From: Leisingera sp. ANG59
GTDB taxonomy: Bacteria; Pseudomonadota; Alphaproteobacteria; Rhodobacterales; Rhodobacteraceae
Direction: 5' to 3'
Length of the DNA stretch: 64,000 bases
NCBI RefSeq assembly: GCF_013317235.1
Contig: NZ_WLCM01000001.1
Span: forward strand, 321,552 to 385,551
The notes below the pieces were generated by a model. That model did not search any database. It had not been told where the DNA came from and was given only the letters and a program-made list of their open reading frames with translations. Both the position numbers and the translations under genes were made by a program. Below are positions 4,559-64,000 of the stretch, piece after piece; within the stretch, counting starts at the first letter, position 1, and each line of letters opens with the position of its first letter.

Positions 4559-5593
4559 TCAGGCCGGAAGGCTGCGGGCCTGGGAGAAGGACAATAGGCG
4601 CTTGCTGTCCTCGTCCCACAGATGCAGCCGGGCGTTGGTCAGGCTTTCACGGATGGTCATCCGGTTGCCTTCGGCCAGCTCCGCATGGTCTCGCAGCACT
4701 TCGGGCAGCCGGTAGAACGGGATCCGGCTGTACAGGTGGTGCACATGGTGGATACCGATATTGGCGCTGAGCCATTGCAGTACTGGGGGCAGCACATAGT
4801 GAGAGCTGCCATGAAGTGCGGCGTCATGCAGCTGCCAATCCTCTTCCCGTTCCCACTGAGTGGTTTCGAACTGGTGCTGGACATAGAACAGCCACAGGCC
4901 GGCGGTGGCGGCGATCAGGGTGGCTGGCAGGAAGATCAGCAGCAGCGGCATCAGACCACCGAAGTACCAGATCAGCCCCAGCGCGGCCAGGATCGCCGCG
5001 TTGGTGCCCATCGCGCTGATCCAGTAGCGGGCCTGGCCCGTCAGCCCGTAGGGGATGCGGTTCTGCAGGAAAAACAGGTAACCGGGGCCGAGGCCGAACA
5101 GGGTCACCGGGTGGCGGTAGAGGCGGTAGACCAGCCGGTCCCAGCGGCTTGCGGCCCGGTATTCGGCCACGGTCATGGTGTGAATGTCGCCCATGCCGCG
5201 CTTGCCCAGGTTGCCGTGGGTGCTGTGATGGATCGAATGGGTGCGGCGCCAGACGTCATACGGGGTCAGGGTCAGCACCCCGATGATCCGGCCCACCCAG
5301 TCGCTGACGTGGCGGTTGTTGAAGAAAGATCCGTGGCCGCAGTCGTGCTGGATGGTGAACAGGCGCAGCAGGAACGCAGCGATCAGCACGGAAATGGCCA
5401 GCGTCAGCCAGTAGCTGACCGACAGCGACCACCAGGCCAGCGCCCAAAGCAGCAGGAAGGGCACCACCGTCACCGCGAGCTCAAAGCTGCTGCGCACGGA
5501 ATTGGGTTCGCGGTATTGGGCCAGGATCTTGACCCAGTCACGGGCGGTTCGTGCAGCCGCCTGCGGCTGGTTCCGGTCTTGTGTCTTGCTCAT
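4559..5593 (-). CDS. Membrane fatty acid desaturase
   Basis: Di-iron acyl-lipid desaturase of 344 residues. All three histidine boxes are present: HDCGH near residue 88, HSIHH near 124 and HHVHH near 283, which together bind the two irons. Hydrophobic segments around residues 40-75 and 185-240 give the usual membrane topology. The box spacing resembles omega-6/delta-12-type desaturases, so it probably adds a double bond to a membrane phospholipid acyl chain. It is followed by the L,D-transpeptidase gene in the same direction. Regiospecificity cannot be read from sequence alone, and no dedicated ferredoxin or reductase is adjacent. Confidence 0.88.
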   Translation of the reverse strand: MSKTQDRNQPQAAARTARDWVKILAQYREPNSVRSSFELAVTVVPFLLLWALAWWSLSVSYWLTLAISVLIAAFLLRLFTIQHDCGHGSFFNNRHVSDWVGRIIGVLTLTPYDVWRRTHSIHHSTHGNLGKRGMGDIHTMTVAEYRAASRWDRLVYRLYRHPVTLFGLGPGYLFFLQNRIPYGLTGQARYWISAMGTNAAILAALGLIWYFGGLMPLLLIFLPATLIAATAGLWLFYVQHQFETTQWEREEDWQLHDAALHGSSHYVLPPVLQWLSANIGIHHVHHLYSRIPFYRLPEVLRDHAELAEGNRMTIRESLTNARLHLWDEDSKRLLSFSQARSLPA

Positions 5594-5751
5594 GCGCCTG
5601 CCGTTTATCTTTCAGTTCAGGACCGGATAGACGACCGGCAGCGGGGAGCAAGTAAAAATTGGCTGGAAACCTTATTTATACTGTTGCCGTGCCGCGAAAG
5701 ACGCCCCGGGTCAAGGCGCACAGATTGGCAAAGACTGCCGCCAAAGAAAAA

Positions 5752-5772
5752 GGCCCCGGAATATCCGGGGCC
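5752..5772 (-). terminator. Rho-independent terminator of mmsA
   Basis: GGCCCCGGA / TCCGGGGCC stem with an ATA loop, 24 bp beyond the mmsA stop codon. In the minus-strand direction it is followed by TTTTTCTTT. Confidence 0.87.
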
Positions 5773-5795
5773 TTTTCCTGTTAAGGGGCAGGAGG

Positions 5796-7295
5796 TTAGT
5801 CCATTGCCTTGAAGTTGAACTCGCCGCCTTCCTTGATGCCCGAGGGCCAGCGGGAGGTCACGGTCTTGGTGCGGGTGTAGAACTTGAAGCTATCCGGGCC
5901 GTGCTGGTTCAGGTCACCGAACATCGACTTCTTCCAGCCGCCGAAGGTGTGGTAGGCCAGCGGCACCGGGATCGGCACGTTGATGCCCACCATGCCGATG
6001 TTCACACGGGATGCGAAGTCGCGCGCGGTGTCGCCGTCACGGGTGAAGATCGCGGTGCCGTTGCCGTACTCGTGGTCCATCGCCAGCTTCAGCGCTTCCT
6101 CGTAAGTGCCTGCACGCACAGTGGAAAGCACCGGGCCGAAGATCTCCTGCTTGTAGATGTCCATGTCGGGGGTGACATGGTCGAACAGGTGGGCGCCGAC
6201 AAAGAAGCCGTCCTCGTAGCCCTGCAGTTTGAAGTCGCGGTTGTCGACCACCAGCTTGGCGCCCTGATCAACGCCGGACTGGATCAGGCCCAGGATGCGC
6301 TCCTTGGACGCCGCGGTCACAACCGGGCCCAAGTCGACGTCGTCGCCGGCGGTGTAGGGGCCGACCTTCAGGGTTTCGATGCGCGGGATCAGTTTTTCGA
6401 TCAGCTTGTCGGCGGTTTCCTCACCGACCGGCACCGCAACCGAGATCGCCATGCAGCGTTCGCCGGCCGCGCCGAAGCCTGCACCGACCAGCGCGTCAGC
6501 GGCCTGGTCCAGATCGGCATCGGGCATGATGATCATGTGGTTCTTGGCACCGCCGAAGCACTGGGCGCGCTTGCCGTTGGCGGTGGCGCGGGAATAGATG
6601 TACTGCGCGATCGGGGTGGAGCCTACGAAGGAGACGCCCTGGATGATTTCGCTGTCCAAGATGGTGTCGACGGCTTCCTTGTCGCCGTTCACGACCTGGA
6701 ACACGCCTTCGGGCAGGCCGGCTTCGATGAACAGCTCGGCCAGCATCAGCGGCACGGAGGGGTCGCGCTCGGAGGGTTTCAGCACCACGGCGTTGCCGCA
6801 GGCCAGCGCCGGGCCGACGTGCCACAGCGGCATCATGGCGGGGAAGTTGAACGGCATGATCGAGCCGACAACACCCAGCGGCTGGCGCATGGAGTACATG
6901 TCGATGCCGGGGCCTGCGCTGTCGGTGAATTCACCTTTCAGCATCTGCGGCGCGCCGACGCAGTATTCGATCACTTCCAGGCCGCGCTGCAGGTCGCCCT
7001 TGGCGTCCGGGATGGTCTTGCCGTGCTCGCGGCTCAGCGCTTCTGCCAGCTTGTCCATGTCGCGGTTCATCAGGCCGACCATCGCCATCATCACGCGGGC
7101 GCGTTTCTGCGGGTTGGTCGCGCCCCATGCGGGCTGCGCCGCGGCGGCCTTTTCGATCGCATCGGTGGTCTCTGCAGCGCTGGCCATCGGGCACTGGTAC
7201 TGCACTTCACCGGTTGCGGGGTTGAAAACATCGTCAAAGCGGCCCGAGGTGCCGGAGACCAGTTTGCCGTTGATAAAGTGGCCGAGTTCTTTCAT
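5796..7295 (-). CDS. mmsA: CoA-acylating methylmalonate-semialdehyde dehydrogenase
   Basis: Catalyses NAD- and CoA-dependent conversion of (methyl)malonate semialdehyde to propionyl- or acetyl-CoA, the last committed step of valine breakdown and also used in inositol catabolism. The 499-residue product has the aldehyde dehydrogenase fold: MPFNFPAMMPLW and VLKPSERDPSVP in the NAD domain, and the catalytic Cys in GAAGERCMAISVAVP, a segment characteristic of the MmsA subgroup rather than general aldehyde dehydrogenases. AGGAGGATCCG gives a strong ribosome site. A LysR gene diverges 137 bp upstream and is the likely regulator. The upstream valine enzymes sit about 4 kb away on the same strand, separated by three unrelated genes. 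Confidence 0.95.
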   Translation of the reverse strand: MKELGHFINGKLVSGTSGRFDDVFNPATGEVQYQCPMASAAETTDAIEKAAAAQPAWGATNPQKRARVMMAMVGLMNRDMDKLAEALSREHGKTIPDAKGDLQRGLEVIEYCVGAPQMLKGEFTDSAGPGIDMYSMRQPLGVVGSIMPFNFPAMMPLWHVGPALACGNAVVLKPSERDPSVPLMLAELFIEAGLPEGVFQVVNGDKEAVDTILDSEIIQGVSFVGSTPIAQYIYSRATANGKRAQCFGGAKNHMIIMPDADLDQAADALVGAGFGAAGERCMAISVAVPVGEETADKLIEKLIPRIETLKVGPYTAGDDVDLGPVVTAASKERILGLIQSGVDQGAKLVVDNRDFKLQGYEDGFFVGAHLFDHVTPDMDIYKQEIFGPVLSTVRAGTYEEALKLAMDHEYGNGTAIFTRDGDTARDFASRVNIGMVGINVPIPVPLAYHTFGGWKKSMFGDLNQHGPDSFKFYTRTKTVTSRWPSGIKEGGEFNFKAMD

Positions 7296-23590: not shown

Positions 23591-23715
23591 AAAAAAAAGG
23601 CCGAGCACTAAGCTCGGCCGAAGTCCAACAGGGAGGTATGAAGGGGGGCGAAGCCGCCGCCTTCATGAGGATCATTTAGGGTGATGAAGGGCACCCTTCA
23701 AGAGGATTAACGCCA
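23591..23715 (-). ncRNA. Candidate small regulatory RNA
   Basis: The minus strand contains, in order: a short GAAGGG/CCCTTC hairpin (about 23687-23700), a stronger ATGAAGG/CCTTCAT hairpin (23638-23666) with internal GGCG/CGCC pairing, an unpaired CCTCCC (23631-23636), and a perfect 8-bp terminator stem GGCCGAGC/GCTCGGCC (23599-23619) ending in eight T. The exposed CCTCCC is complementary to Shine-Dalgarno sequences, a feature of several rhodobacterial sRNAs. The 5' end and promoter are not defined. The alternative is a long 3' UTR of the LysR gene at 23832. Confidence 0.4.
23599..23619 (-). terminator. Rho-independent terminator (candidate sRNA or LysR 3' end)
   Basis: Stem GGCCGAGC / GCTCGGCC with a five-base loop, followed on the minus strand by eight T. 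It is 213 bp beyond the LysR stop codon, which is far for a simple gene terminator. Confidence 0.9.
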
Positions 23716-59035: not shown

Positions 59036-59078
59036 GGGTTTTCAAATCACTTCGCCGGAGATAGGAAGGCGCACGGTC

Positions 59079-59155
59079 CGGGGCGTGGCGCAGTCTGGTA
59101 GCGCACCTGTTTTGGGTACAGGGGGTCGTGAGTTCGAATCTCGCCGCCCCGACCA
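59079..59155 (+). tRNA. tRNA-Pro (anticodon TGG)
   Basis: 77-nt cloverleaf with acceptor stem CGGGGCG/CGCCCCG, D-arm around GCGCAGTCTGGTAGCGC, anticodon stem-loop CCTGT-TTTGGGTA-CAGG containing TGG, T-arm GTTCGAATC and an encoded ACCA end. It reads CCA and, by wobble, other proline codons. Confidence 0.95.
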
Positions 59156-59258
59156 CTTCTCTCCATAAAATTGCAGCGAGTCTTTGCCAGGTAAAACCGC
59201 TTGAAGGATTCGCTTCCCGCTTTTGTTGAGAACAATTGGCTTGATGCAATCTTGAGTG

Positions 59259-59296
59259 TTAATACTTCTTTAATACCCTGTTAACACTCCCTTAAC
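59259..59296. promoter_or_regulatory. Array of overlapping CtrA binding boxes upstream of nrdJ
   Basis: Four TTAA half-sites begin at 59259, 59270, 59281 and 59292, exactly 11 bp apart. Each neighbouring pair forms TTAA-N7-TTAA, and the last two pairs match TTAA-N7-TTAAC, the Caulobacter CtrA consensus, without mismatch. The phase places all half-sites on one face of the helix. The nearest downstream gene is nrdJ, about 580 bp away. Confidence 0.7.
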
Positions 59297-59547
59297 CAAC
59301 TGCCGCTGAACCGCATCAGTTTGTTAAGGGCTCCACGGGGTCCAATGCTGCAGCGCCATGATACCATCGGAAGATCACCGTAAAGTTGTTTGTGCATGCC
59401 ACTTGCCGCCGGCCGCTCAAGGGATGTGAATCATTGCCCGAATGAGCTGCCGTTCCGGCGCCTCTGCGACGCGGCAAGTTACTTGCTTGGCATAAGAAAT
59501 CCGGGTTGCCCGTAAACTGGATTTTTACACTGCCGGACGTGGCAGCC

Positions 59548-59556
59548 TGTGGATGA
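59548..59556 (-). promoter_or_regulatory. DnaA-box-like site in the nrdJ upstream region
   Basis: TGTGGATGA differs by one base from the reverse complement of the DnaA box TTATCCACA. A weaker relative, TGTGGACAC, lies at 59664-59672. A GAATC (GANTC methylation target) overlaps the first site. Single near-matches occur by chance, so this is tentative. Confidence 0.3.
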
Positions 59557-59878
59557 ATCAATGGTCGTCGCCGGACCCTTGAAACCGCGAATAGCGTCAA
59601 CAGCAAAGATCGTTGCCAAGGGGTAAATTTAACGTTGACCCTTTGTGTGTGAATACGCCAAATTGTGGACACCGGTTGCGATGGCACTAAATCTGGTGGG
59701 TTAAGGGGCCACAGCAACAACGCTGAAGACAGCAGACAGTCCTTTGTAGAATGGCCGGCGAGGGCCGCAAGTGCGCCATATGGGGCGTGCGCTGGATATC
59801 TGCGTGTTGCGTGGCCGGACTGGCTGGTGCGGGGGCACCGTGACACTTGACCGATGTGTGCTTGAGAAGGGGCAGAGC

Positions 59879-62800
59879 ATGAAGATCGAACGGAAATTCA
59901 CCAAACCCGGGCAGGATGCTTACGCCGATCTGGCTTTTGTCTCTGCAACCTCGGAGATCCGCAACCCGGACGGGACCATTGTTTTCCGGCTCGACAATAT
60001 CGAGATTCCCGCGTCGTGGAGCCAGGTGGCCAGCGACGTTATTGCGCAGAAGTATTTCCGCAAGGCCGGTGTGCCGTCCCGCCTCAAGAAGGTCCGCGAA
60101 AAGGACGTGCCGGAGTTTCTGTGGCGCTCTGCCCCCGACAAAGGGGCCGAATTCGGAGGAGAGACGTCCTCCAAGCAGGTGTTTGACCGTCTGGCGGGCG
60201 CCTGGGCCTATTGGGGCTGGAAAGGCGGCTACTTCTCCTCCGAGGAGGACGCGCGCGCCTATTACGACGAGATGCGCTATATGCTGGCGACCCAGCGCTC
60301 GGCGCCGAACTCGCCCCAGTGGTTCAACACCGGCCTGCACTGGGCCTATGGCATCGACGGCCCGGCGCAGGGGCATCATTATGTCGACTACAAGACTGGC
60401 AAGCTGACCAAATCCGACAGCGCCTATGAGCACCCGCAGCCCCACGCCTGCTTCATCCAGTCGGTCTCTGACGATCTGGTCAAGGACGGCGGCATCATGG
60501 ACCTGTGGGTGCGCGAGGCGCGGCTGTTCAAGTACGGTTCCGGCACCGGCACCAACTTTTCCCATCTGCGCGCCGAGGGTGAGCCGCTGTCTGGCGGCGG
60601 CAAATCCTCTGGCCTGATGGGCTTCCTCAAAATCGGCGACCGCGCGGCGGGCGCCATCAAATCAGGCGGCACAACCCGTCGGGCAGCAAAAATGGTGATC
60701 GTGGACGCCGATCACCCGGATATCGAAGACTTCATCCAGTGGAAGGTGATCGAGGAGCAGAAGGTCGCGTCCATCGTCGCGGGCTCCAAGATGCACGAGA
60801 ATATGCTGAATGGTATCTTCGAAGCGATCCGCAGCTGGGATGGCGGCGAAGCCGATGCCTATGACCCGTCGGTCAACTGCGGGCTGAAATCGGCGATCCG
60901 CGAAGCCAAAAAGGTGGCGATCCCGGAAACCTACATCAAGCGGGTGCTGGATTACGCCAAGCAGGGCCATACCTCGATCGAATTCCCGACCTATGACACG
61001 GATTGGGATTCCGAGGCCTACAGCTCTGTTTCCGGCCAAAACTCCAACAACTCGATCCGGGTGACCAACGCCTTCCTGCATGCGGTCGAAAAAGACGCCG
61101 ATTGGGAATTGTTCAACCGCACCGACGGCAAGGTCGCCAAGGTGATCAGGGCCCGCGATCTGTGGGAGAAGGTGGGCCACGCGGCCTGGGCCTGCGCCGA
61201 TCCGGGCATCCAGTTCCACGACACCGTAAATGAATGGCACACCTGCCCGGAAGACGGTGAAATCCGCGGCTCAAACCCTTGCTCTGAATACATGTTCCTG
61301 GACGACACTGCCTGCAACCTGGCGTCTCTGAACCTGCTGAGCTTCTTGAAGGACGGTCAGTTCCAGGCAGACGATTACATGCATTGCTGCCGCCTGTGGA
61401 CGCTTACGCTGGAAATCTCGGTGATGATGGCGCAGTTCCCGTCCAAGGAAATCGCGCAGCGCTCCTACGACTTCCGCACCCTTGGCTTGGGATATGCTAA
61501 TATCGGCGGCCTCTTGATGAACATGGGCTACAGCTATGACTCGGATGAGGGCAGGGCGCTTTGCGGTGCGCTGACCGCGCTGATGACCGGCGTTGCCTAT
61601 GCGACCTCTGCGGAGATCGCATCGGAGCTTGGCGCCTTCCCAGGCTATGCCAAGAACGCAGATCATATGCTGCGGGTGATCCGCAACCACCGCAACGCGG
61701 CAAAGGGCAATGCTGACGGCTATGAGGCGCTGTCCGTGAAGCCGGTGCCGCTGGACATCGCCAGCTGTCCCGATGCGCTGCTGACCGATCTGGCCGCAAG
61801 CGCCTGGGACGAAGCGCTGGAGCTGGGCGAGAAACACGGCTACCGAAACGCGCAGACAACGGTGATTGCGCCGACCGGTACCATTGGTCTGGTGATGGAC
61901 TGCGACACCACCGGGATCGAGCCGGATTTTGCCCTGGTTAAGTTCAAGAAGCTGGCCGGGGGCGGTTACTTCAAGATCATCAACCGTTCGGTGCCGTCGG
62001 CGCTGGAGGGGCTGGGCTACAGCTCTTCCCAGATCGAGGAAATCGTGTCCTACGCGGTGGGCCATGGCTCTATCGGCAATGCGCCTGGCATCAACCACAC
62101 CTCGCTGGCAGGCCACGGCTTCGGCCCCAATGAGCTAGCCAAGGTGGATGCGGCGCTGGAATCGGCCTTTGATATCCGCTTCGTGTTCAACCAATGGACC
62201 CTAGGCGAAGATTTCTGCACCGGCGTGCTGGGTATACCGGCGACCAAGCTGAACGATCCGACCTTCGACCTTCTGCGCCACCTGGGTTTCACCAAGGCGG
62301 ATATCGAGGCGGCCAACGACCACGTCTGCGGCACCATGACCCTGGAGGGCGCGCCGCATCTTCAGGAAGAGCATTACGCGATCTTTGACTGCGCAAACCC
62401 GTGCGGCAAGAAAGGCAAGCGTTTTCTGAGCGTTGACAGCCATATCCTTATGATGGCGGCGGCCCAAAGCTTTATCTCGGGTGCTATCTCAAAGACCATC
62501 AACATGCCGAATTCGGCGACCATCGAGGACTGCCAGAAGGCCTATGAGCTGAGCTGGAGCCTGGGCATCAAGGCGAACGCGCTCTACCGCGACGGCTCCA
62601 AGCTGAGCCAGCCGCTGGCGGCGGCGCTGGTCGAAGATGACGACGATGCGGCAGAGGTTCTCGAGAGCGGCGCGCCTCAGGAAAAGGCGGCGGTTCTGGC
62701 CGAGAAGATCATCGAGAAGGTGGTCATCAAGGAGGTGCTGAAATCGCACCGCACCAAGATGCCGCAACGGCGCAAGGGCTATACCCAGAAAGCGGTCGTC

Positions 62801-63523
62801 GGCGGCCACAAGGTGTATCTGCGCACCGGCGAATACGAGGACGGCAATCTGGGCGAGATCTTCATCGACATGCACAAGGAAGGCGCGGGCTTCCGGGCAA
62901 TGATGAACAACTTCGCCATCGCGGTGTCGGTTGGCCTGCAGTACGGAGTGCCGCTGGAGGAGTTCGTTGACGCCTTTACCTTCACCAAGTTCGAACCCGC
63001 GGGCATGGTCCAGGGTAACGACTCGATCAAGAACGCGACCTCGATCCTCGACTATGTTTTCCGCGAACTGGCGGTTTCCTATCTGGACCGCACCGATCTG
63101 GCTCATGTGAAGCCGGAAGGCGCGACCTTTGACGATCTGGGCCGCGGCGAAGAGGAAGGCGTGTCGAACCTTTCGGAGCTGAGCGAAAGCGCAGCGACCC
63201 GCTCGCTGGAAGTGCTGAAGCAAATCTCCTCGACCGGCTACCTGCGTAAGCGGCTTCCACAGGACCTGGTGGTATTGCAGGGCGGCCAGATGGACGCAGG
63301 TGTTCTGGGCACCGGAACCGATCCGGTGGCGGCGTTGCAAACTCTGGTGCCGGAAACCACTGACGCACCTGCGCAAGCCTCCGGCGGAATGGATGCGCGC
63401 ACCAAGGCAAAAATGCAAGGCTATGAAGGAGAAGCTTGCGGCGAATGCGGCAACTACACGCTGGTTCGCAACGGCACCTGCATGAAATGCAACACCTGCG
63501 GGGGAACCTCCGGCTGCAGCTGA
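59879..63523 (+). CDS. nrdJ: Vitamin B12-dependent (class II) ribonucleotide reductase
   Basis: Adenosylcobalamin-dependent reduction of ribonucleotides to deoxyribonucleotides, oxygen-independent. ATG at 59879 follows AAGGGGC and yields 1214 residues; upstream frame adds a non-homologous 36-residue prefix. Landmarks: [21 protein letters not shown] near residue 225, [18 protein letters not shown] near 470 with catalytic-loop Asn/Cys, [19 protein letters not shown] near 880, and a C-terminal redox tail [20 protein letters not shown] near 1185-1210 that delivers electrons. It is a single-chain enzyme with no NrdAB visible, so it may be the sole or main RNR. Regulation probably involves the CtrA-box array upstream. 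Confidence 0.95.
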
Positions 63524-63790: not shown

Positions 63791-64000
63791 TTATTCCAAA
63801 CGGTTCTGGATTTCCATCAGCTTGCTTTCGAAGACTTCTGCTGGTGTCTTGTAGCCGAGGCACTTGCGCGGGGTGGAATTGAGGCGGTGGCAAACCGACC
63901 TTAAATATCGGTTTGTCAGCACCGTCGGCTCGGTCGAGCGAGGCAGGTATTTTCTCAGCCTGTTGTTGGTGTTCTCGACGGTGCCTTTCTGCCACGGAGC
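63791..64000 (-). mobile_element. IS30-family transposase, C-terminal part (runs off the right edge)
   Basis: The minus strand from 64000 reads continuously for 69 residues to a TAA: APWQKGTVENTNNRLRKYLP, then RLNSTPRKCLGYKTPAEVFE. The GTVENxN segment carries the conserved Glu of the DDE catalytic triad, and the TPRKCLGYKTPAEVF end is typical of IS30 transposases. The first two catalytic Asp residues and the N-terminal HTH lie outside the window. The element end should lie between roughly 63660 and 63790, but a terminal inverted repeat cannot be identified without the other end. Confidence 0.85.

Follow-up and report, generated by a model that had tools for sequence, protein, structure and literature searches.

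The question raised by this locus is what an array of four TTAA half-sites, set in exact 11-bp steps, is doing upstream of nrdJ, the gene for an adenosylcobalamin-dependent (class II) ribonucleotide reductase (RNR), in Leisingera sp. ANG59 (Rhodobacteraceae), and whether the regulator CtrA reads it. The window, by which we mean the whole 64-kb stretch of DNA analysed (contig NZ_WLCM01000001.1, positions 321,552 to 385,551), had earlier been read from its letters and open reading frames (hereafter the sequence-only reading), with the claim that TTAA at 59259, 59270, 59281 and 59292 forms CtrA-type sites, two of them exact to the consensus, in an arrangement very unlikely by chance. All four positions and their exact 11-bp steps were recovered, and the two exact boxes are the second and third of three overlapping TTAA-N7-TTAA boxes, which, with C as the next letter, fit the stricter TTAA-N7-TTAAC, as the first does not. 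The half-sites and the gene lie as follows, with conservation taken from a genus alignment of 20 upstream regions, one per species and our own included:

59259..59262, + strand: TTAA half-site 1, exact in 16 of 20 species
59270..59273, + strand: TTAA half-site 2, exact in 18 of 20 species
59281..59284, + strand: TTAA half-site 3, exact in 18 of 20 species
59292..59297, + strand: TTAACC, which holds TTAA half-site 4, the TTAA exact in 20 of 20 species
59879..63523, + strand: nrdJ, adenosylcobalamin-dependent (class II) RNR (NF005736, 2211.5 bits, cut-off 1737)

The three boxes of the array are the only exact TTAA-N7-TTAA matches in the window, for which shuffling gives an expected mean of 0.06, and none of 100 shuffles reached three. 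Within the intergenic stretch 59156-59878 (GC fraction 0.53), 20,000 dinucleotide shuffles never placed four TTAA in 11-bp phase, nor four in phase at any period from 6 to 15, and placed a run of at least three in 11-bp phase once, which bears out the earlier judgement on chance. Across the genus, where nrdJ is present in 21 of 21 genomes (own included), all four half-sites are kept in 14 of the 20 aligned species, three in 5 and one in 1; when the set was thinned to the 14 species less than 75% identical in 59330-59540, four were kept in 9, three in 4 and one in 1. Mean conservation reaches 0.956 over the 16 core bases versus 0.683 over the spacers, with 0.819 in the block 59296-59327 and 0.554 in the upstream flank (59225-59251), and its maximum coincides exactly with the TTAA phase. 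No indel interrupts 59255-59330 in any species, and median pairwise identity is 0.72 over 59256-59327 versus 0.40 over 59330-59540. Judged from this alignment, the array is under selection in the genus. An inverted repeat spanning the array (GAGTGTTAA to TTAACACTC) was set aside, its arm letters varying across the genus.

These results also settle how much weight to give to a chance cluster in an AT-rich gap. In its favour, TTAA is denser before nrdJ: at 79 nrdJ loci from other Rhodobacteraceae genera, it occurs at 2.49 per kb in the 59 kb upstream of the gene versus 0.78 per kb in the 672 kb of remaining sequence, which is mostly coding. Against the shuffles and a conservation peak lying exactly on the TTAA phase, however, a chance origin is vanishingly improbable, and we rejected it.

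Which protein, then, would read the array? The genome encodes ctrA (430 bits in a model search, cut-off 350), and the CtrA-like sequence of the sites, kept selectively across the genus, agrees with the earlier proposal; CtrA is the likely binder. Genome-wide, exact TTAA-N7-TTAA boxes number 31 in 5.33 Mb, and the 7-bp spacer is commoner than the 6-bp spacer (31 versus 11 boxes). A mixed-spacer search (2-14 bp) returned 110 matches, and by hand tally the first 50 of these comprised 15 with 7 bp, three of them the array, and 35 spread over twelve other lengths. With the pattern read backwards as control, 27 matches were counted at 7 bp, 25 at 6 bp and 348 with mixed spacers, so that enrichment of the box is weak against the backward control and clear by the spacing comparison. 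The genes near the other 28 boxes were called by a crude script with predicted starts and no control set, and on this basis 17 of the 28 boxes fall within about 150 bp of a predicted gene start. One lies some 23 bp upstream of where a cckA-like gene is predicted to begin; the product, a hybrid kinase, reaches 531 bits with one CckA model and 451 with another, under their cut-off of 1000. Another box lies about 33 bp before a motB-like gene (195 bits, below the cut-off of 277). A third neighbour encodes a PAS-domain protein, which we take to resemble DivL; for most of the remaining neighbours no link to CtrA is apparent. Upstream of ctrA itself, 1.5 kb contain no exact box and a single one-mismatch box, GTAA-N7-TTAA. 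In excerpts of the literature, CtrA control of cckA and divL was inferred in several Rhodobacterales (Brilli et al., PMC2877005), and CtrA sites were predicted at ctrA, cckA and divL of D. shibae (Wang et al., PMC4046655).

The genome does offer other candidates, with 15 places, CtrA included, matching most of the CtrA model length. Winged-helix regulators of the OmpR/PhoB type recognise direct repeats spaced by about 11 bp, and either another member of that type or a TTAA-associated protein such as SciP might use it; in the part of PMC4287350 available, Caulobacter SciP peaks from chromatin immunoprecipitation hold TTAACAT. The literature, as excerpted, nevertheless ties TTAA-N7-TTAA to CtrA, and such boxes precede the cckA-like and motB-like genes of this genome, so that we regard use by another regulator as quite improbable.

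Taking together the array and how well it is conserved, the spacer length that the genome prefers, and the ctrA, gcrA and nrdR genes that it carries, we infer, with moderate confidence, that phosphorylated CtrA binds the array and switches on a distal promoter that would read toward nrdJ. Two further elements enter this proposal:

59313..59318, + strand: GCATCA, candidate -10 of the distal promoter, GCRTCA in 20 of 20 species
59324..59327, + strand: fifth TTAA, 32 bp beyond half-site 4 and conserved in 18 of 20 species, close to where transcription is predicted to start

Mechanistically, dimers of CtrA would occupy neighbouring half-sites along the same face of the DNA helix. Half-site 4 and GCRTCA look like a -35/-10 pair facing nrdJ, in which TTAACC likely overlaps the -35 because CtrA promoters elsewhere have that layout, and the invariant GCRTCA would act as the -10: activator sites for CtrA sit near -35, and a full site is found at -39 of Caulobacter ctrA P2 (excerpts of PMC6180460 and PMC4287350). 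Transcription would begin near 59320-59330, about 550 bp before nrdJ, giving a long leader, and the distal promoter would add a CtrA-dependent input to a proximal promoter that NrdR probably represses, with a DnaA-like box overlapping a GANTC site upstream of it. The sign of the CtrA effect on nrdJ is uncertain because extra CtrA sites can raise affinity yet restrain output (PMC11264516, in part).

That same duality opens the alternative that CtrA represses locally at the array, or regulates the proximal promoter from a distance, with no start site at the array. Extra upstream CtrA sites lower pilA activity in Caulobacter and the hemE Ps promoter uses two sites for repression (both in excerpts of PMC11264516), and the fifth TTAA lies near the predicted start, all of which would suit such a role; the conserved TTAACC and GCRTCA block nevertheless reads as a promoter, and the proximal -35-like TTGACC is some 340 bp off. 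We consider this improbable. Among known systems, the Caulobacter pilA promoter likewise has several CtrA sites, the downstream one at -35, whereas its four sites are distinct pairs set 3, 31 and 78 bp from one another, two of them with 6-bp spacers (PMC11264516, excerpt); the four half-sites here keep a single unbroken 11-bp phase, and they would control a metabolic gene. Full-site promoters of CtrA in Caulobacter and Rhodobacter sphaeroides similarly carry TTAA-N7-TTAA (or N6) near -35, their targets, unlike nrdJ, being cell-cycle and flagellar genes (PMC4287350 and PMC6180460, excerpts). Alphaproteobacterial phages also pack many TTAA-N7-TTAA into one intergenic gap, that of phage Delta holding 30 TTAA of which 12 form canonical sites (PMC9437464, excerpt), but those clusters sit in phage gaps, whereas the present array stands before a conserved chromosomal housekeeping gene.

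Would such a promoter need to serve nrdJ at all? The sequence-only reading had suggested as an alternative an unannotated RNA, that is, an independent CtrA-driven transcript ending before the nrdJ promoter, to which the promoter-like layout fits equally well; a gap of about 580 bp is available, and a conserved patch lies at about 59460-59510. It found little support, with no conserved run and no consensus fold following the array. Conservation in the stretch 59335-59459 does not rise above that of the upstream flank (0.553 versus 0.554), 59325-59545 yields no consensus fold, a relaxed Rfam search gave one match at chance level, and no terminator-like site on the + strand was listed in 59050-59900. 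The only known RNA family detected in 59150-59900, by Rfam and by the relaxed search, was the transfer RNA (tRNA); a long conserved open reading frame was likewise rejected, frames common to at least 17 of the 20 species reaching only about 120 nt, at 59509-59702 (windows with frame-breaking gaps were skipped). An independent RNA is thus unlikely, though it keeps some plausibility.

The order on the + strand is tRNA-Pro, a hairpin with a T-rich tail, the array, a variable stretch, CTGTGGATGAATC, the proximal promoter, the leader and nrdJ. The two elements upstream of the array are:

59079..59155, + strand: tRNA-Pro(TGG), called by ARAGORN and Rfam (RF00005, 62.8 bits)
59175..59224, + strand: hairpin with T-rich tail (fold -17.3 kcal/mol, z -2.56)

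Two hand-picked sister-species versions of the hairpin fold at -25.6 (z -4.11 and -3.85); RNAalifold on the 20-species alignment returned no pairs for 59175..59224, and the pattern scan did not list the hairpin. It is likely the terminator of tRNA-Pro, in which case the tRNA transcript would end before the array.

Downstream, a separate and better conserved proximal promoter region, some 340 bp from the array and with NrdR-like boxes, precedes nrdJ itself. Its elements, in which the DnaA-like and NrdR-like boxes are putative assignments by general consensus forms, are:

59547..59559, + strand: CTGTGGATGAATC, DnaA-like box with an overlapping GANTC (CcrM-type) site, in 20 of 20 genus species
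59635..59640, + strand: TTGACC, likely -35 of the proximal nrdJ promoter, in conserved columns inside the conserved CGTTGACC
59653..59668, + strand: NrdR-like box 1, conserved in genus and family
59684..59699, + strand: NrdR-like box 2, conserved, 31 bp centre to centre from box 1

The best match to CTGTGGATGAATC had no more than two mismatches in 34 of 80 family upstream regions versus 1 of 80 letter-shuffled regions. CGTTGACC is present in 40 of 79 family upstream regions. The GANTC at 59555, overlapping CTGTGGATGAATC, is kept in all 20 species; others at 59178 (17 of 20) and 59207 (18 of 20) lie in the hairpin stem. The genome encodes gcrA (161 bits, cut-off 26.9) and nrdR (166 bits, cut-off 124.65), and the two boxes about 31 bp apart plus the nrdR gene correspond to an apparent NrdR-type promoter, so that the proximal promoter is likely repressed by NrdR. 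Other NrdR-controlled RNR promoters likewise have paired boxes about three helical turns apart at a proximal promoter; NrdR control leaves the distal TTAA array unexplained.

The nrdJ leader (59680-59878) shows good conservation, and its predicted fold is more stable than those of alignments with shuffled columns (z -4.6). A structured leader stays a lead, however, because only 1 of 34 pairs in 59694-59878 shows a double change; the relaxed Rfam search gave no match above chance for it. Between the array and the DnaA-like box, the genus also conserves a patch at 59460-59512 with an imperfect GGCAAGT-ACTTGCC palindrome. The window's nrdJ shares 98% identity with the nrdJ of Leisingera sp. ANG-M7. 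It had been described as the only visible RNR, which is true of the window and not of the genome, where a second class II RNR matches NrdJ_Z (598.5 bits, cut-off 399.95; locus L120, G000:C82, about 5125-5817); weak matches to a second class II RNR were listed in genus genomes as well.

How far does the array extend beyond the genus? The sequence-only reading had made conservation in relatives its own check: the array survives in the genus and is only sometimes present in other genera. Over the 79 other-genus loci introduced above, TTAA pairs 10 or 11 bp apart occur 16 times upstream of nrdJ versus 3 times in the far longer remainder (10 versus 1 at 11 bp, 6 versus 2 at 10 bp). Among the distances from 5 to 24 bp, only 17 bp (4 versus 1) and 21 bp (5 versus 4, partly from the 10/11-bp chains) otherwise exceeded the 0-2 upstream occurrences seen at the rest. 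At least two TTAA in 10/11-bp phase are found at 11 of the 79 loci, where shuffles predict 1.58, and at least three at 4, where they predict 0.05. Of 199 family genomes, our own among them, 36 contain exact triple arrays; of 30 such loci fetched, one has nrdJ within 1.5 kb on each side, namely the window's own. Exact four-half-site arrays were seen in G000 (our genome), G070, G116 and G120 of the family set. Those of G070 and G116 (L155 and L136), from other genera, lie upstream of homologous MshEN-type genes, which are 35% identical over 220 residues; one carries a glycosyltransferase domain and the other scores slightly below the MshEN cut-off. These genes are a possible recurrent CtrA target.

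Several observations weigh against a CtrA-driven distal promoter for nrdJ. The array sits far from the gene, 620-584 bp 5' of its start codon, and the sequence that follows it is no better conserved than its flank, as given above. One of the 20 genus species retains a single half-site, and the array before nrdJ is not universal in the family because 68 of 79 other-genus loci lack a phased pair. Genome-wide, the box is barely enriched over its backward control (31 versus 27), triple arrays show no enrichment over the backward pattern in the 199 family genomes, and among the neighbours of the 28 other boxes just two, the cckA-like and motB-like genes, could be tied to a CtrA-type function. A sigma-70 pattern scan listed no promoter at the array. 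Finally, "nrd" and "ribonucleotide" are absent from the main text of three studies of CtrA in roseobacters, with Phaeobacter inhibens and D. shibae data (PMC4046655, PMC6473078 and PMC12363192), where genes may appear as locus tags or in supplements.

A small or growth-phase-limited effect on nrdJ would escape ctrA mutant data; in excerpts of PMC12363192, mutants of both species show lower expression of about 40 genes, of which flagellar clusters account for 31. In D. shibae, the search for CtrA sites (PMC4046655, excerpt) ran from 400 bp before each start codon to 50 bp after it, an interval too short to include an array at -620 to -584. Literature naming ribonucleotide reductase, nrdJ and CtrA together comprised, in the portions available, only a brucellosis review, and among the matches listed in broader searches none was recognisable from its title or the start of its abstract as a report of CtrA control of nrdJ.

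Elsewhere in the window, 23593-23673 on the - strand matches the Rfam family SorX (RF02784, 56.9 bits against a gathering threshold of 46.6), a small RNA that takes its name from resistance to singlet oxygen, and a piece of an IS30-type transposase lies at the window end (63791-63997, - strand; 50.5 bits, cut-off 80).

In a broader frame, Caulobacter nrdA is likewise an RNR gene with a promoter GANTC, conserved in 5 of 5 species, and is listed in the DnaA regulon but not in that of CtrA or of GcrA (PMC3973325, Table 1, excerpt), whereas the class II nrdJ here has a CtrA-type array. Tentatively, and with more doubt than conviction, we posit that the nrdJ control region may be a cell-cycle integrator timing deoxynucleoside triphosphate (dNTP) production with replication and CtrA-controlled states in Rhodobacteraceae. 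It would combine the phased CtrA array and its distal promoter with paired NrdR boxes and with a DnaA box that overlaps a CcrM methylation site, CtrA directly driving an RNR, a combination that, taken jointly, we hold to be possible and somewhat doubtful. Roseobacter studies connect CtrA with motility, quorum sensing and gene transfer agents (excerpts of PMC4046655, PMC6473078 and PMC12363192). If true, a direct CtrA input on RNR would link this same switch to dNTP supply, for example for DNA synthesis around gene transfer or recombination.
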